Below, piece by piece: positions 18,354 through 25,065 of a stretch of 64,000 nucleotides of DNA (position 1 is its first letter; each line of letters begins with the position of its first letter). This DNA comes from Rhodothermus profundi (GTDB taxonomy: Bacteria; Bacteroidota; Rhodothermia; Rhodothermales; Rhodothermaceae): NCBI RefSeq assembly GCF_900142415.1, contig NZ_FRAU01000001.1, forward strand, positions 186,001-250,000, written 5' to 3'. The notes below the pieces were generated by a model. That model did no database searches and was not told the origin of the DNA. It saw only the letters and a list, made by a program, of their open reading frames with translations. A program made the position numbers and the translations under genes.

Positions 18354-19142
18354 CTATGGCGTTACGCGGGTAGCCTGGCGGCGCGTGAGCAGGTCGTCAG
18401 GAGCCAGGATGTACACTTCTGGAATGTGTTGTGCCAGCGCTTGAAAGGCAACTTCTAATTTGACCTGCATGCCGCCCCGAATCCATCCTTCACGAAGCCC
18501 TGCCTCGAAAGTAAGCCGGTCGCAATGGTGCAGCAGGCTGGTGGGATCGTCTGGCCTGCGCCGCACGCCACCCGTTTCTGTAACGAGCAGGAAGGTGTGG
18601 GCCTGCAACGCGGCGGCCAGGGCGCAGGCCACGGTGTCGGCGTTCACGTTGTAAAGCAGGCCTTCGTCGTCTATGCCGAGGGGGGCTACGACCGGCACAT
18701 AGCCTCCCGCCAGCAGGTGCTGCAATAGCGCGGGCTCAACGCGCGACACATCGCCGACCCACCCAAAATCTACCGTTTCCCCTTCGATGGTCCAGGGAGG
18801 GCGGCGCCGGACGCGCAGCGTGCCGCCGTCAGCCGCTGAGAGACCAACAGCGGGCAGGCCATACTGCAATGCTGTGGCCACCAGGCGCAGGTTCAGTTCA
18901 CCCCGAAGGGCCCATTGCAGGATCTGCAGGTCCAGGGCAGTTGTAACGCGACGTCCCTGAACGATGCGCGGCTGATGGCCCAGGCGTTGGGCCAGCGCAG
19001 TAGCCTGAGGACCGCCACCGTGCACCACGACGACAGGAGCCTGTTGGCGCAGGCCGACCACACCCTTCCAGAAAGCCTCAAGGGATTCGGAGGCTTCCAG
19101 TAAGGCCCCGCCGATCTTGACAACAATCGGATGGTTGGTCAT
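18354..19142 (-). CDS. argB: N-acylglutamate kinase (ArgB)
   Basis: The 262-residue amino-acid kinase phosphorylates N-acetyl- or N-succinyl-glutamate. KIGGALLE at residue 9, VVHGGGPQATALA near 39, the GLSAADGG segment, and NVNADTVACALAAAL near 165 are the ATP and substrate loops. The chain starts directly at the first beta strand. It lacks the N-terminal helix that makes hexameric kinases sensitive to arginine, so it resembles the short E. coli-type enzyme. If this holds, arginine control of the pathway must lie elsewhere, and the operon has a leader attenuator. It is the last gene of the operon and overlaps the carbamoyltransferase stop by four bases. Confidence 0.93.
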   Translation of the reverse strand: MTNHPIVVKIGGALLEASESLEAFWKGVVGLRQQAPVVVVHGGGPQATALAQRLGHQPRIVQGRRVTTALDLQILQWALRGELNLRLVATALQYGLPAVGLSAADGGTLRVRRRPPWTIEGETVDFGWVGDVSRVEPALLQHLLAGGYVPVVAPLGIDDEGLLYNVNADTVACALAAALQAHTFLLVTETGGVRRRPDDPTSLLHHCDRLTFEAGLREGWIRGGMQVKLEVAFQALAQHIPEVYILAPDDLLTRRQATRVTP

Positions 19143-20182
19143 GAGTCAAACGGAGGTAAGTGCCAGACGTACTCCAGAATGGCTTTCTGCGCATAGAGTC
19201 GAAAAGCAGCCTGTTTCAGGTGGATTGCCTGAGGGCTATCAAGCACGGCATCATCTACCACCACGTTACGACGGACGGGCAGGCAGTGCATGAAGGCAGC
19301 CTGCCGGGTGCGCGCCATCAGCTCGGGCGTAACGCGCCAGTGACGATATTGCTGGCGCAGGGCCGCTTCTTCTTCGGGCGAGGTGTAGTACAGTCGGCTG
19401 CCCCATGATTTGGCATAGACAATGGCCGCTCCGTCGAAGGCTTCGGCCTGGTCATGCACCACGGTAACCCGCCCGCCGCGAGCGGCTGCGTCGGCCTGGG
19501 CGCGGGCCAGGACGCCTTCGTCTAGCTCAAAACCCGGGGGATGGGCAACGACTACTTCCATGCCCAGACGTGCTGCCATGAGCAGGGCCGAGTTAGGGAC
19601 GGCCATGGGCAACGCGCGCGGATGATAGGCCCAGCTCAGCACAAAGCGCCGGCGCTGCACCGAGCCGTCCAGATGGTCGAGAATGGTAGCGGCGTCGGCC
19701 AGCGCCTGGCAGGGATGATAGAAAGCAGACTCCAGGTTAATAACAGGTACAGTGGCAGCACGTGCGATTGCGTTAAGCAGGCGCTCCTCTCGATCCTGCT
19801 CGTAGTCGGTCTGGGAAGCAAAAATGCGCACGCCCAGTGCGTCGTAGTACTGAGAGAGCACGCCAATAGCCTCCCGGATGTGTTCGGCTGCAGCGCCGTC
19901 CATGACCACCCCATCGCGCCATTCAAGCTGCCAGGTGCCCTGGCCGATCACCAGCGTGGTAGCATGGGCCCCCAACTGGACGGCTGCCAGCTCCATGGAC
20001 GTGCGCGTGCGCAGGGACGGATTAAAGAACAGGAGCCCCAGGCTTCGATGGCGAGCCACTTGGCTCCAGGCCTGTTTGCCTTGGTGGTAATGCTCCAGCG
20101 TACGCGTCAGACAGCGTTGCCAGATGTCGTCGCTGAGATACTGCCAGTCAAGTAAATGCCGGGGAGGCGGAAGCTCATCCAT
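19139..20182 (-). CDS. argF': N-acylornithine carbamoyltransferase (ArgF')
   Basis: The 347-residue transcarbamylase has the carbamoyl-phosphate loop FFNPSLRTRTSMEL (residues 52-65), a HPCQALAD loop, WAYHPRALPMAVPNS, and MHCLPVRRN near the end. The acyl-ornithine type is shown by the WxxxP(R/K) segment and by VVMDGAAAEH (residues 92-101). From memory of the two characterised enzymes, the residue three after MDG is Glu92 in the Xanthomonas N-acetylornithine enzyme and Pro90 in the Bacteroides N-succinylornithine enzyme. Here it is Ala99, which fits neither. The Lys that is carboxylated in Xanthomonas (Lys302) is Val here, as in the succinyl type. So the acyl group is uncertain. The ATG shares one base with the argD stop (TAATG). 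Confidence 0.9.
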   Translation of the reverse strand: MDELPPPRHLLDWQYLSDDIWQRCLTRTLEHYHQGKQAWSQVARHRSLGLLFFNPSLRTRTSMELAAVQLGAHATTLVIGQGTWQLEWRDGVVMDGAAAEHIREAIGVLSQYYDALGVRIFASQTDYEQDREERLLNAIARAATVPVINLESAFYHPCQALADAATILDHLDGSVQRRRFVLSWAYHPRALPMAVPNSALLMAARLGMEVVVAHPPGFELDEGVLARAQADAAARGGRVTVVHDQAEAFDGAAIVYAKSWGSRLYYTSPEEEAALRQQYRHWRVTPELMARTRQAAFMHCLPVRRNVVVDDAVLDSPQAIHLKQAAFRLYAQKAILEYVWHLPPFDS

Positions 20183-21390
20183 TAGACCGTCCGGGTTGCT
20201 GGCTGGTTATTGCGGGTGAGAACCTGCAGGAAAATTTCCAGAAACTCGTCAATTGCTTCCTCCGGAGTGTTAAGCGGAGGCATGAGCCGGATAACGTTTG
20301 GATGGCTGGCACTGCCGGCCAGGATCCCCTTGGCCCGTAGCTGGGCCAGCACAGGGGCGGCCGGGCGGTCCAGTTCCAGCCCGATCAAACAGCCTCGGCC
20401 CCGTACGGCTACAACATGCGCCGCGACCGCCTGGCGGATGCGTTCGAAGATGGCCAGGGCGCGCGCCATCAGTTTTTCGTCACGGATCGTTTCGAGCGTG
20501 GCCGTTACAGCAGCCATGGCCAGCATGCCGCCGCCAAACGTAGTTCCCTGGTCGCCGGGTTTGACCGTTGCGGCAATGGCATCAGAAACCAGCACGGCGC
20601 CGACAGGCACGCCAGATCCCAGACTTTTGGCCAGCGTGATCAGGTCTGGACGTATGCCATATTGCTCGGCGATAGAAAACGTGCCGGTTCGGCCCACGCC
20701 TGTTTGCACTTCGTCGAAAATCAAAACGACCCCGTAGCGGTCGCACAGTGCCCGAAGGCCCTGGTAGTAGGCTACCGGTGCTTCATAGACGCCGGCCATG
20801 CTCTGAATAGGTTCCAGGATGATGGCAGCAATGTCGTGATGCCGGGTGAGCAGGTGTTCAATAGCTTCCAGGTTGCCCATGGGTACGAAGTGCGTGGGCG
20901 GCAGCACCGACAGGTATGGTTTGCGGTAGCTGAGCGGTTCGGTAGCTGCCAGGCTGCCCAGTGTGCGGCCATGAAAGCTGCGTTCGAGCGCAATCAACCC
21001 GGGTTTTCCGGTCCAGGCTCGGGCCAGTTTGAGTGCCGTTTCGTTGGCCTCAGTACCTGAATTGCAGAAAAACACGTGGCGCAGTCCTTCCGGGGCCATC
21101 TCGGCCAGCAGGGCAGCCGCGCGTGCCCGTACCGGACTGTAGACAACATTCGAGTAAAACAAGAGCTGGGAGGCCTGGTCCTGGAGGGCCTGCACCACGC
21201 GGGGCGGGCAGTGGCCCAGCAGTGTGACACAGTGGCCGCCGTAAAAGTCCAGGTAACGGCGTCCCTCGGCATCCCACACGTAGCACCCTTCGCCGCGCAC
21301 AAGCGCGACGGGCATCTTGCGATAGGTGGGAAGCTGAACGGTCTCTTCAAGCTGAATGATTTCCTGCGTGTTCATGGGTGCGATTACCAT
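20182..21390 (-). CDS. argD: acetylornithine (or succinylornithine) aminotransferase
   Basis: The 402-residue class III PLP aminotransferase converts N-acylglutamate semialdehyde to N-acylornithine. NSGTEANETALKLAR binds the phosphate; HGRTLGSLAATEP and IIFDEVQTGVGRTG-type segments follow (FDEVQTGVGRTG here). The PLP lysine is in ITLAKSLGSGVPVGAV, and GTTFGGG is near residue 283. It lies between argC and the carbamoyltransferase with almost no gaps. The ATG at 21390 is listed; an ATG at 21375 (MNTQEI) is an equally good start, and neither has a Shine-Dalgarno sequence. Confidence 0.95.
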   Translation of the reverse strand: MVIAPMNTQEIIQLEETVQLPTYRKMPVALVRGEGCYVWDAEGRRYLDFYGGHCVTLLGHCPPRVVQALQDQASQLLFYSNVVYSPVRARAAALLAEMAPEGLRHVFFCNSGTEANETALKLARAWTGKPGLIALERSFHGRTLGSLAATEPLSYRKPYLSVLPPTHFVPMGNLEAIEHLLTRHHDIAAIILEPIQSMAGVYEAPVAYYQGLRALCDRYGVVLIFDEVQTGVGRTGTFSIAEQYGIRPDLITLAKSLGSGVPVGAVLVSDAIAATVKPGDQGTTFGGGMLAMAAVTATLETIRDEKLMARALAIFERIRQAVAAHVVAVRGRGCLIGLELDRPAAPVLAQLRAKGILAGSASHPNVIRLMPPLNTPEEAIDEFLEIFLQVLTRNNQPATRTV

Positions 21391-21425: not shown

Positions 21426-22457
21426 TCAGGCGTCGACTGCGGCAGGAGTCGGGAGCAGACCGGCTGTCTGCGGGAGCCCCAACAGCAGGTTCAGGTTCTG
21501 GATAGCCTGGCTGGCCGCGCCTTTGAGCAGGTTATCGAGGGCAAAGCCCACAACCAGATGGTGGTGGCGCACCACCCAGCCCAGGTCACAGAAGGGGGTA
21601 TGGACGGCATAACGCAGTTCGGGGAGCTGGTCGGGCCACAGGCGCACGAAGGGAGCCTCTCCATAGGCGGCCTCATACCATTCCGACACGTCACGGGTTG
21701 TAATGCCTGCGGGCAGCGTTACATGCACTGTGCCCCAGATGCCCCGCGTCCACGGTCCAGAAACCGGCACAAATGCGATATGGAGATAGGGCCCGACCAC
21801 CTGTTGCACCTCAGGCAGGTGCTGGTGCGTCAATACCTTATAAGCACGCACGTTGCCGTCGCGCTCTGGAAAGTGCGTGGTAGCTTTCGGACGGGTGCCT
21901 GAACCGGAGGCGCCCGTCAGGGCCGTGACGGCAACGGTACGTTCGCGGAGGGGGTGGCGTAGTGGCCAGAGCGCCAAGGCCAGTCCGGTGGCAAAGCAGC
22001 CTGGATTGGCCAGCAGGCGGGTGCCCGGTGCGTAGGGCGCATAAACTTCTGGTAGGCCGTAGACAAACCGACCGAGCAATTCAGGGGCAGGGTGATCAAA
22101 CCCGAACCATTCCGGATAGCGGGCAGCGTCCCGAAAGCGAAAGTCAGCACTCAGATCGATAATCAGGCCCTGATAGCCGTTTTCAAGCAGACGCTGCACC
22201 GTGCGGGCCCCCTGACCGTGTTCGGCTGCAATCAGCACCGCGTCCAGCTCCGACAGCGTCAGCGCTGCTTCTTCGACGAACGTCAGGTCGGTCTGTCCCC
22301 GCAGGGTGGGGTGGGCACGCCAGAGCGGCTGGCCGGCGAATGTGCGGCTGGTCACAGCAGTCAGCGTGCAATACGGATGCGTCAGCAGCAGACGAATCAG
22401 TTCGCCGCCGACGTAGCCGGCTCCATGTAGAATGGCAATGCGCAAAGGCGTTGACAT
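21426..22457 (-). CDS. argC: N-acyl-gamma-glutamyl-phosphate reductase
   Basis: It reduces N-acylglutamyl phosphate to the semialdehyde with NADPH. The 343-residue product from the ATG at 22457 opens with IAILHGAGYVGGELIRLL, a Rossmann loop. NPGCFATGLALAL holds the catalytic Cys, and HRHLPEV-like HQHLPEVQQ holds the active-site His. An upstream frame extension to 22577 would run into the neighbouring gene and is rejected. The gap from the P-loop gene is 16 bases, consistent with one transcript. Confidence 0.95.
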   Translation of the reverse strand: MSTPLRIAILHGAGYVGGELIRLLLTHPYCTLTAVTSRTFAGQPLWRAHPTLRGQTDLTFVEEAALTLSELDAVLIAAEHGQGARTVQRLLENGYQGLIIDLSADFRFRDAARYPEWFGFDHPAPELLGRFVYGLPEVYAPYAPGTRLLANPGCFATGLALALWPLRHPLRERTVAVTALTGASGSGTRPKATTHFPERDGNVRAYKVLTHQHLPEVQQVVGPYLHIAFVPVSGPWTRGIWGTVHVTLPAGITTRDVSEWYEAAYGEAPFVRLWPDQLPELRYAVHTPFCDLGWVVRHHHLVVGFALDNLLKGAASQAIQNLNLLLGLPQTAGLLPTPAAVDA

Positions 22458-22473
22458 AAGCCCTTCAGAAGGT

Positions 22474-23568
22474 TCAGGTTGCAGCAACTGCGACACCACT
22501 TCCATTATGGTAATGGGGTAAAGGGCGGGCTGCCGTACGTACCGAGCGGGCGATAAGCTGCCCCAGCGCTTCGGCATCCTGGCGGGCGTTAAGCGCTGGG
22601 ATGCCCATGGCGTGCTGGATATACCGCTTGCCGACGGCGTTGTCGGTGACCGGCCCGGTAATTACCGTAATCGGTGCGTGGTAGCGCGTCCGGAAAAGCT
22701 GATCGGCAGCCCAGGCACCGGCCAGGTCGGTGGCGGCTACTACATGCGCCCGCGTGAAGCGCTGCAGTTCTTTATCCAGCAAAAGTTCGTCAACGCCGTA
22801 GTAGCCGATAAAGCCGTCGCCGAGCTCGACCACAATCACGTCCGGGGCGAACGTGTTGAGATGGGCAATGAGTCCTTTAGCAAGCGGAGCCATCTCCTTG
22901 TTGGTGGATGAGACGACCCCGGCATCGATGAACGTCACGCTGGCAATGGCGCCGTTTTCTTCCATGAGCCGGGCATCGCGCAGCAGGGCGGCACCGGTGA
23001 GCTTGCCGGCGGCCACCCGCAGGCCGTGTTCGCTCAAATAGCGGATGATCTGGGCGGCCGCAAACGTCTTGCCCGTGTTCATGGAAGTGCCGCTGATCAT
23101 GACCAGGGGCGCCGAGTGCGTGAGCGAAAAGACGGGCTCCAGAGCATGATCCTGCACGCGAGCGTGCCGTTTCTGACCGTCCACTTCAACGACTACTGCG
23201 CCCAGCACTTCCACGCGCAGCGCTGGACCTAAGTCTGGGTGATCTGAAATGCACTGGCCCAGAATGCCTCCCATGTTTAAGATGTGCAGCACATCCCCTA
23301 CTTGAATGCGTCGAGGGATGCGGCCGCTGTACCCTTTGAGCGCCTGGCGTTCGCCAAGAGCCCCCACAATCAGGTCACCTCGCCGGATGGTCTGGAACGT
23401 ACCATCGGTGCACTCCAGCAGGTTGTACGTAGTTTTTTCTTCCAGGGCCCGTACGACCAGGCAGTAGCCCTCTTCTGCAACGATGTACGAAGTGATTTCG
23501 AGCTCGTGAGTAAGCTGGCACGGGGCCGTGCTTGATCCGATTTTGTCAACGGTCAGTTGCTGGTACAT
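22474..23568 (-). CDS. P-loop protein of the arginine operon (DUF1611/DgcN-like)
   Basis: The 364-residue protein has an N-terminal beta-rich part (residues 1-150), then a P-loop domain with the Walker A motif VMISGTSMNTGKTFAAA. VAAGKLTGAALLRDARLM and VIVVELGDGFIGYYG follow. This resembles DUF1611 and the dethiobiotin-synthetase/MobB class of P-loop proteins. The DUF1611 protein DgcN is known to act as an N-acetyltransferase on D-glutamate. In Bacteroides a GNAT acetyltransferase gene is next to argG; here no GNAT, argA or argJ is present, and this gene sits between argG and argC. A role as the missing N-acylglutamate synthase is my hypothesis. It may instead be a regulator or ligase. Confidence 0.8.
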   Translation of the reverse strand: MYQQLTVDKIGSSTAPCQLTHELEITSYIVAEEGYCLVVRALEEKTTYNLLECTDGTFQTIRRGDLIVGALGERQALKGYSGRIPRRIQVGDVLHILNMGGILGQCISDHPDLGPALRVEVLGAVVVEVDGQKRHARVQDHALEPVFSLTHSAPLVMISGTSMNTGKTFAAAQIIRYLSEHGLRVAAGKLTGAALLRDARLMEENGAIASVTFIDAGVVSSTNKEMAPLAKGLIAHLNTFAPDVIVVELGDGFIGYYGVDELLLDKELQRFTRAHVVAATDLAGAWAADQLFRTRYHAPITVITGPVTDNAVGKRYIQHAMGIPALNARQDAEALGQLIARSVRTAARPLPHYHNGSGVAVAAT

Positions 23569-23588: not shown

Positions 23589-24815
23589 TTAAGCGGCCGT
23601 CTGGTTGGTTTCGTAGGACGCGGCCGACTGCCGGGCTCGGGCAGCCAGCAGGGCCTGCACACCATAAATGCGCGTGAACCCCTGGGCATCGCGCCCGTCC
23701 CAGAGCCGGTTTTGTTCGCCGTAGGTAGCTACTTTTGTATCCAGGAGCGAGTAGGGACTGTCGCAGCCGAGCACCTCGATATGGCCTTTAAAAAGCCGCA
23801 CCCGGACCGTACCCGTTACGGTCTGCTGGGAAGAGTCCAGGAACGCTTCGATGTCGCGCATAACGGGATCGAAGTACTGGCCTTCGTGGAGCAGCATGCC
23901 GTAGAAGTCGGCCAGATGATCTTTCTGATACCGCTGCCAGCGCGTCAGCACGATCTTTTCCAGCTCTCGGTGCGCAGTGATCAGGATCAGGGCAGCCGGG
24001 GCCTCGAAGCCTACGCGTCCTTTGATGCCCAGGATGGTGTCACCGACGTGGATGCCCCGGCCCACGCCATGCGCGGCACCAAGCCGGTTGAGGCGCTCAA
24101 TCAGCGTGACAGGATCCAGCGTCTCGCCGTCCAGGGCCGTGGGAATGCCCTGCTCAAAGGCGATCGTGAGTTCCAGGGGAGTGTCGGGCGCCTGGGCAGG
24201 CGGGACCGTGTCGGGATAGGCCGCATCGGGCAGCGGCTCCGAGGAAGTGTGCGTCTCGCGACCACCAATCGTCGTGCCCCACAGGCCCCGGTTGATGGAA
24301 TAGGCGGTTTTCTTTTCGGGGACTTCGATGCCGCGTTCTTTCAGGTAGGCGGTGGCCGCCTCACGGCTGAGTCCCAGCTCCCGGATCGGTGTCAGAATTT
24401 CCAGATCATCGGCCAGGATACGCAGCGCTACGTCGAAGCGCACCTGGTCGTTGCCGGCGCCCGTCGAGCCATGGGCAATTGCCCGCGCGCCAAGCCGACG
24501 GGCTACTTCCACCACCTTACGGGCTTGCACAATGCGTTCCGGCCCGACGCAGAGAGGATAGACGCCACCGCGTAATACATTGCCCTTGATCAGATAGCTC
24601 AGGTGATCGCGAAACAGGTCGTGGCGGCCGTCAATCGTGAAGTGATCGGCTGCGCCGAGGCGTTGCGCGAGCGTCTGGATTTCGGCAATAGCCGCTTCGG
24701 TCAGTCCACCCGTGTTCACGGTTACGGTGTAGACCGGCTCGCCATAGGTCTCCCGCAGGTACGGGACGCAGAACGACGTGTCTAACCCGCCGCTGAATGC
24801 CAGCACGATGGACAT
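23589..24815 (-). CDS. argG: argininosuccinate synthase
   Basis: It joins citrulline and aspartate using ATP. LAFSGGLDTSFCVPYL (residues 5-20) is the PP-loop. GSTGAGNDQVRFD is the aspartate/citrulline segment, and KKTAYSINRGLWGTTIGG with YDP-type contacts follows. The 408-residue length is normal. It is the first structural gene of the operon, starting 25 bases after the poly-U tract of the leader terminator, so its expression should depend on read-through. The stretch before the ATG has no Shine-Dalgarno sequence. argH and argE are not in the window. Confidence 0.96.
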   Translation of the reverse strand: MSIVLAFSGGLDTSFCVPYLRETYGEPVYTVTVNTGGLTEAAIAEIQTLAQRLGAADHFTIDGRHDLFRDHLSYLIKGNVLRGGVYPLCVGPERIVQARKVVEVARRLGARAIAHGSTGAGNDQVRFDVALRILADDLEILTPIRELGLSREAATAYLKERGIEVPEKKTAYSINRGLWGTTIGGRETHTSSEPLPDAAYPDTVPPAQAPDTPLELTIAFEQGIPTALDGETLDPVTLIERLNRLGAAHGVGRGIHVGDTILGIKGRVGFEAPAALILITAHRELEKIVLTRWQRYQKDHLADFYGMLLHEGQYFDPVMRDIEAFLDSSQQTVTGTVRVRLFKGHIEVLGCDSPYSLLDTKVATYGEQNRLWDGRDAQGFTRIYGVQALLAARARQSAASYETNQTAA

Positions 24816-24839: not shown

Positions 24840-24877
24840 AAAAAGAAAGGCGCCGGCTCCTTGCTGGAACCGGCGCC
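24840..24877 (-). terminator. leader terminator (attenuator) of the arginine operon
   Basis: On the minus strand GGCGCCGGTTCC (24877-24866) pairs with GGAGCCGGCGCC (24860-24849). This gives twelve base pairs including one G-U, around the loop AGCAA, followed by TTTCTTTTTC (24848-24839). It lies between the leader peptide and argG, where a terminator makes sense only as a conditional stop. Confidence 0.9.
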
Positions 24878-24997
24878 CTGTCTATGTTCAACGCTGTCAG
24901 CTCAACTCATCCTCATCCTGCCACAGGACAGCATGCGCCGGTTCCACCCCCGCGGGGGCGACGGGGACGTCGCACAGGTCGGATGGGTCGAACCGGC
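24849..24997 (-). promoter_or_regulatory. four-segment attenuator (1:2, 2:3, 3:4) sensing arginine
   Basis: Four segments are mutually complementary on the minus strand. Segment 1 is GCCGGTTC (24997-24990), segment 2 is TGGAACCGGCGC (24946-24935), segment 3 is GCGCCGGTTCCA (24876-24865), and segment 4 is GGAGCCGGCGCC (24860-24849). Segments 1 and 2 pair over 8 bases, 2 and 3 over 12 perfect bases (antiterminator), and 3 and 4 form the terminator. Segment 2 starts two codons after the last Arg codon of the leader peptide. A ribosome stalled on Arg codons would cover segment 1 and leave 2:3 free to form. A ribosome reaching the stop would cover segment 2 and let 3:4 form. The mechanism is inferred from this geometry. 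Confidence 0.88.
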
Positions 24998-25002
24998 TGC
25001 AT
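24913..25002 (-). CDS. arginine-rich leader peptide
   Basis: This 29-residue reading frame begins at the ATG at 25002, with AGAGG (25016-25012) nine bases upstream. Residues 5-17 read RPIRPVRRPRRPR: seven arginines in thirteen positions, coded by CGA, CGT and CGC. The tail is GGGTGACCPVAG and a TGA at 24913. An in-frame ATG at 25026 would add eight residues and two more arginines. The frame also stays open upstream of that ATG, but the promoter at 25037-25065 excludes a longer gene. It is followed by the attenuator segments and then argG, so its translation rate should report charged tRNA-Arg supply. Confidence 0.88.
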   Translation of the reverse strand: MQPVRPIRPVRRPRRPRGGGTGACCPVAG

Positions 25003-25036
25003 CCTATGGAACCTCTGTGGCAGCATGATGGCTCGC

Positions 25037-25065
25037 ATGATACAACAAAATTTTATGCCTGTCAA
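25037..25065 (-). promoter_or_regulatory. promoter of the arginine operon
   Basis: TTGACA (25065-25060), a 17-base spacer and TATCAT (25042-25037) on the minus strand match the general sigma-70 consensus closely. They do not match the Bacteroidota TTTG/TAnnTTTG type. The transcript would start near 25030, about 28 bases before the leader peptide ATG at 25002 and only a few bases before the ATG at 25026. Confidence 0.75.

Follow-up and report, generated by a model that had tools for sequence, protein, structure and literature searches.

We identified a leader region upstream of the argG gene of Rhodothermus profundi which very probably acts as a trp/his-type, ribosome-mediated attenuator of transcription, senses charged tRNA-Arg and thereby controls argG-argC-argD-argF'-argB. 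The transcription start site, translation of the leader open reading frame (ORF) and the response to arginine are inferred without expression data. The region lies on the minus strand of the window, which is the whole stretch of DNA analysed (64,000 nucleotides; contig NZ_FRAU01000001.1, positions 186,001 to 250,000). Six further genomes of the same genus (G001-G006) were compared with the genome of the window (G000), and five of these relatives have argG. Among public genomes, the named relatives of the ArgG protein fall in Rhodothermales. The leader consists of the following features, given in window coordinates:

25060 to 25065, minus strand: -35 element TTGACA, from a consensus scan, conserved in 5/5 same-genus relatives.
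25037 to 25042, minus strand: -10 element TATCAT, 17 nt spacer from the -35 element.
24913 to 25026, minus strand: leader ORF in its probable form, MLPQRFHRMQPVRPIRPVRRPRRPRGGGTGACCPVAG, 37 codons, with its ATG 10 nt after the -10 box.
24913 to 25002, minus strand: leader ORF in the form of the sequence-only reading, MQPVRPIRPVRRPRRPRGGGTGACCPVAG, 29 codons, sharing the reading frame of the 37-codon form.
24937 to 25002, minus strand: 66-nt block, starting at the second ATG and running through segment 2, with one variable column among five species of the genus.
25015 to 25023, minus strand: 5' strand of the outer helix, CTGCCACAG, from folding; at two pairs, both strands differ between species.
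24990 to 24997, minus strand: segment 1, GCCGGTTC, directly preceding the first core CGA codon.
24935 to 24946, minus strand: segment 2, TGGAACCGGCGC, the antiterminator strand.
24918 to 24926, minus strand: 3' strand of the outer helix, CTGTGGCAG, from folding; pairs with CTGCCACAG.
24865 to 24876, minus strand: segment 3, GCGCCGGTTCCA, pairing with segment 2 or segment 4.
24849 to 24860, minus strand: segment 4, GGAGCCGGCGCC, the 3' arm of the terminator.
24840 to 24848, minus strand: T-run TTTCTTTTT of the intrinsic terminator, preceding the argG start at 24815.

The terminator ends 24 bases upstream of argG, the first gene of an operon with the order argG-P-loop gene-argC-argD-argF'-argB, whose arg genes make arginine, the amino acid that is predicted to be sensed:

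23589 to 24815, minus strand: argG, argininosuccinate synthase (NCBIfam TIGR00032 and NF001770, above cut-off).
22474 to 23568, minus strand: gene of a P-loop protein, located between argG and argC (CbiA and DUF1611 match only weakly, below cut-off).
21426 to 22577, minus strand: argC (TIGR01850).
20182 to 21390, minus strand: argD-type acetylornithine/succinylornithine transaminase (TIGR00707 as best match, E 2.7e-113, below its cut-off).
19139 to 20182, minus strand: argF', N-acetylornithine carbamoyltransferase (NF003384, above cut-off).
18354 to 19142, minus strand: argB, acetylglutamate kinase (TIGR00761).

The argH gene is located separately in Rhodothermus and no Arg leader is evident before it. 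DNA similarity revealed no further copy of the leader in the rest of the genome.

The promoter matches the consensus at 11 of 12 positions with a spacer of 17 nt (average in shuffles of the region: 0.0), bearing out the TTGACA/TATCAT promoter that had been proposed from the letters alone; the -10 box reads TATCCT, TATTGT or TATTCT in same-genus relatives. The downstream ORF, read as 29 codons, carries seven Arg among residues 5-17. A density of seven Arg in 15 codons was not reached in any of 100 shuffles (p = 0.01) and was found in only one of 42 upstream regions of the window. While the Arg-rich ORF thus stands as first described, its start probably does not: the ATG at 25026 is in frame with the ATG at 25002, 24 nt upstream of the latter, and on sequence grounds is the more likely start of the leader, giving 37 codons. 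An equivalent ATG is missing in one relative, G006 (L004). Transcription usually begins about 7 nt downstream of the -10 box, which would place the leader AUG at the 5' end of the mRNA or no more than a few bases from it. The arrangement recurs across families, with the -10 box ending 6-10 nt before the leader ATG in 23/36 leaders scored; the promoter-to-ATG distance is mostly longer in families f12 and f14. In addition, the ATG at 25026 is directly followed by the 5' strand of the outer helix, supporting an RNA 5' end near this position. The leader ORF is therefore predicted to be probably leaderless, or nearly so, with the transcription start site still unmapped.

The pairing of the four segments was examined next to the folding of the entire leader. 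Segment 1 (GCCGGTTC) is complementary to GAACCGGC within segment 2 over 8/8 bases, segment 2 (TGGAACCGGCGC) to segment 3 (GCGCCGGTTCCA) over 12/12 bases, and segment 3, in the form GGCGCCGGTTCC, to segment 4 (GGAGCCGGCGCC) over 12 pairs including one G-U. The sequence-only reading had described the 2:3 helix as 12 perfect bases and the 3:4 helix as 12 pairs with one G-U, followed by a T-run (24848-24840) and argG (24815), and both descriptions are exact. Its 1:2 helix of 8 bases does pair fully, but the arm is longer than stated and continues into the outer helix CTGCCACAG/CTGTGGCAG (25023-25015 with 24926-24918). The RNA from 25026 to 24840 folds with a z-score of -6.4, and none of 200 shuffles was equally stable.

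In the proposed mechanism, transcription would start at the leader AUG or a few bases from it, so the mRNA from which the ORF is translated would be leaderless or nearly so. Under ample Arg-tRNA, or without translation, 1:2 would form, followed by the 3:4 terminator, and transcription would stop before argG. When Arg-tRNA is scarce, a ribosome would stall on the first Arg codons and cover segment 1; 2:3 would then form before segment 4 is made, allowing the polymerase to read through. To follow these states, RNA ending after segment 3 (window sequence) was folded as nascent RNA under schematic ribosome masks reaching 17 nt behind the A-site codon and 12 nt onward from its first base. Without a ribosome, the predicted probability of 1:2 was 1.00, while with the A site at codon 13 or 16 that of 2:3 was 0.91-1.00. 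A ribosome at the stop codon let 1:2 form if the 5' RNA was free, and with masks at later Arg codons 1:2 re-formed unless the 5' RNA was also covered, for example by a following ribosome. These masked folds suggest that the first two conserved CGA codons, rather than the last Arg codons, are probably the main sensors. The expectation that stalling on Arg codons frees segment 2 is thus met for the first Arg codons, but the supporting argument from the distance between segment 2 and the last Arg codon needs correction, as segment 2 lies inside the ORF and would be partly covered by a ribosome on that codon. Folding in both states, which had been suggested as a check, switched the nascent RNA from 1:2 to 2:3 under masks at codon 13 or 16, but the full-length RNA at equilibrium adopts the terminator fold in every masked state, indicating that the switch must be kinetic.

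Within the genus, the promoter, the ORF and the segments are kept in 5/5 same-genus relatives with argG, two of the leaders being near-identical. A loss of the Arg codons or of the 2:3 complementarity in relatives that keep argG had been named as a refutation, and both are retained in all five. The 66-nt block shows no change at 20 four-fold codons, while four-fold sites of argG differ from the window by 42-57%, indicating selection on the RNA letters and not on the peptide alone. The block is near-invariant even in its unpaired middle, where GCGACGTCCCCGTCGC can form a hairpin. This constraint exceeds what codon sensing, and hence the attenuator model, needs. Covariation in the outer helix, where some species have changes on both strands at two pairs, is modest; it rests on five sequences, 33/500 shuffles reach its score, and the helix is partly broken in L004.

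To see how far the design extends, the DNA upstream of argG was read in 50 Rhodothermales genomes (calls were hand-curated, L119 and L127 by eye). Shortly upstream of argG, an Arg-rich short ORF with a subsequent intrinsic terminator was found in 41/50 genomes and in 13/14 families, with diverged sequences. It was seen in 0/6 genomes of family f15 and is missing in three genomes outside f15 (G033, G046 and G040). Typical leaders have 18-40 codons with 4-10 Arg, and the Arg enrichment compared to shuffles was significant (p<0.05) in 30/37 distinct leaders. Outside Rhodothermales no convincing Arg leader before argG was found in about 75 loci, mostly of Bacteroidota; the ORF MRIKQRILLR of Dyadobacter/Larkinella was rejected as a candidate, as it looks like the end of an upstream coding frame. 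GC-rich DNA readily gives Arg-rich frames, and five Arg in 15 codons occur in 3/42 upstream regions of other window genes, so that an Arg-rich frame might lie by chance beside an ordinary terminator of the upstream region. Conservation of the design in 13 families, right after a conserved promoter, refutes this explanation and leaves it practically no credibility.

For the antiterminator, the 5' strand of each terminator was scored against the part of the ORF that separates the Arg cluster from the stop codon. Pairing of the 2:3 type was above chance across families (Fisher p about 2e-5, each family entering with one median value), and exchanging partners between families weakened it (mean rank 0.26, p 3e-4; family members are not independent). 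The loop-side half of the terminator arm varies by family and segment 2 of the ORF varies to match, with partners GGAGGAA/TTCCTCC in f11, AGGTGGA/TCCACCT in f6, GGACTG/CAGTCC in f3, GGATGGA/TCCATCC in f2, GGACGGGA/TCCTGTCC in f12 and GAATCGGCG/CGCTGATTC in f7. Some members (L010, L011, L024, L125) show only weak 2:3 pairing. Pairing of the 1:2 type was above chance overall and weak in individual families, and segment 1 lies just before the first Arg codons in several families. The wider comparison thus gives the sequence-only reading what it had called for, conserved Arg codons and matching changes in the paired segments. A structured RNA to which arginine or a protein binds directly, the ORF being incidental, would account for the 66-nt block being almost invariant in the genus beyond the needs of codon sensing, and for the very stable fold (z -6.4). 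It is nevertheless a very unlikely reading, since no Rfam family matches and neither the sequence nor the structure of the block is kept across families, unlike the Arg frame, the terminator and 2:3.

The choice of Arg codons is strongly biased. CGA makes up 110/273 (40%) of the Arg codons in the leaders and 49/718 (7%) in argG of the same genomes, whereas CGG accounts for 5% in the leaders vs 30% in argG. Leader Arg codons are mostly CGA, CGC or CGT, including all seven core Arg codons in the window. Among the best 30 tRNA loci of the genome (ARAGORN), the tRNA-Arg anticodons are ACG, CCG, CCT and TCT, with one tRNA-Arg(ACG). Under standard wobble pairing, the ACG (inosine) tRNA decodes CGA as well as CGC and CGT, suggesting that the leaders chiefly sample one isoacceptor. 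The sensed species would then be charged tRNA-Arg, chiefly the lone tRNA-Arg(ACG) expected to read these codons. A proline-sensing reading was rejected; Arg is conserved and Pro is not in other families (L014 has no Pro).

The same bias bears on an arrest-peptide switch, in which an Arg-rich nascent peptide and free arginine in the tunnel would stall the ribosome at high arginine, as in SpeFL or the fungal arginine attenuator peptide. The latter (arg-2/CPA1 uORF) is likewise a short ORF controlling an arginine pathway gene; it is eukaryotic and translational, and arrests at high arginine via its peptide sequence. Polybasic stretches slow ribosomes and the core of the leader peptide is identical across the genus, which would fit such a switch. 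However, the peptides differ between families and share little beyond Arg runs, so that a conserved sequence is lacking; the strong codon bias points to codons and tRNA rather than to a peptide shape in the tunnel; and a stall at high arginine would induce a biosynthetic operon at the wrong time. We consider an arrest peptide very improbable. CGA, decoded by inosine wobble, is also known to be slow, and its strong enrichment would fit a constitutive governor in which the slow decoding of CGA runs fixes the read-through level irrespective of arginine supply. Without sensing, though, the occurrence of arginine codons before arginine biosynthesis in 13 families would be a coincidence, and ArgR, the usual sensor, is missing, so that there is very little to recommend this possibility. 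A tRNA-sensing attenuator remains the preferred reading.

The textbook regulator of bacterial arginine synthesis is ArgR. Matches to PF01316 (ArgR) were present in 2/60 Rhodothermales genomes, and none was found in G000 or its six genus mates. With ArgR missing in 58/60 genomes, the earlier argument from ArgR holds for this lineage. The matches to Arg_repressor in G016 were rejected as ArgR; there are five copies with identical scores, from which we infer a probable mobile element. In G040 (C181; L129/L131), an ArgR gene lies directly upstream of argG and there is no Arg leader; this argG is diverged, with only 51% identity to argG of the window. Because G040 has ArgR before an argG without a leader, attenuator and ArgR look like alternatives at the argG locus, though f15 has neither. 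The f15 loci L027, L029, L111, L112, L117 and L118 lack both an Arg leader before argG and ArgR, and the six f15 genomes carry a different argH (scoring about 640 vs 330 bits), which suggests replaced arginine genes. ArgR and arginine T-boxes likewise regulate arginine genes in response to arginine or to the charging of tRNA-Arg; here the ArgR gene is absent and no covariance model match to a T-box riboswitch was obtained at the window. The Rfam leader families (trp, his, leu and other operon leaders) gave no gathering match in the window, and the best weak matches are unrelated. The best reading is that the attenuator replaces ArgR in this lineage.

The argG leader shares its layout with the enterobacterial trp, his, leu, ilv, thr and phe attenuators: a promoter, an ORF with codons for the product, 1:2, 2:3 and 3:4 pairing, a U-run and a biosynthetic operon. 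This layout, keyed to arginine, had been the central proposal of the sequence-only reading; anatomy and conservation (the observations here being sequence anatomy, order-wide conservation, persistence of pairing, codon bias and near-absence of ArgR) support it, and function remains an inference. Unlike trp/his-type leaders, the argG leader is arginine-keyed, apparently has its AUG at the 5' end of the mRNA or close to it and contains segment 2 within the ORF, and it has no sequence kinship with them (the Rfam scan was empty). Leader-peptide attenuators have also been predicted in Actinobacteria, and the same survey states that RNA regulation of arginine elsewhere relies on T-boxes (PMC1262725). 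Among arginine cases the closest is orf34 of Salmonella speF, where consecutive Arg codons also sense arginine and low arginine favours expression; it differs in serving a polyamine gene, in acting by Rho-dependent termination, RNase G and masking of the ribosome site, and in having two Arg codons and no intrinsic terminator switch (PMC6386406). The nearest leaderless case is that of the mycobacterial polycysteine short ORFs (Canestrari et al. 2020), which PMC9031893 describes as regulating translation of downstream genes. These share a leaderless short ORF, codon runs for a single amino acid and control of a downstream operon by ribosome speed; they concern cysteine in Actinobacteria, whereas the argG leader concerns arginine and has an intrinsic transcription terminator and an antiterminator. 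No description of a bacterial arginine-biosynthesis attenuator was found in the literature searched, nor any paper that brings together attenuation, leader peptides and Rhodothermus. As the search did not extend to the survey of Lopatovskaya et al. from 2010 (Mol Biol 44:128), priority is not certain.

Leaders for other amino acids were also seen. The trpE gene is preceded by a Trp-run leader and a terminator at L182 (G000:C1:705274-706644; leader MRHVAYHSAHYYGWWWFTPAVVGRARA) and at L183, L184, L187, L188, L191, L195, L197 and L199. Several trpE leaders have their ATG 7-10 nt after a TATCTT-like box and may be leaderless too. Upstream of ilvB (acetolactate synthase; L209-L215) there are Leu/Ile/Val-rich short ORFs, e.g. 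..RLRRLPLLLLGLLVLLISLIG in Rhodothermus and ..RGIILLILIINLIIIG in G013, which judging from their sequence are likely branched-chain attenuators. A short ORF with HFHHH and a terminator lies upstream of hisG at L166 (G009) and was not seen in Rhodothermus. Attenuation appears to be a general habit of Rhodothermales, with Trp, branched-chain and one His leader.

Taken together, we regard it as rather probable, while by no means settled, that the order has lost ArgR and uses a leaderless attenuator which reads one Arg isoacceptor via CGA-rich codons amid a wider reliance on attenuators, and that this is the first classical attenuator of arginine biosynthesis. Rhodothermus can be cultured, so the prediction is directly testable. 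If the leaderless start is true, the ribosome would load on the first codon of the mRNA and couple transcription and leader translation from the first base, which would make the leader an unusually simple test bed for attenuation. At the argG locus of G040, two control solutions have been exchanged naturally, and the order as a whole appears to control arginine synthesis by RNA and ribosome instead of ArgR.
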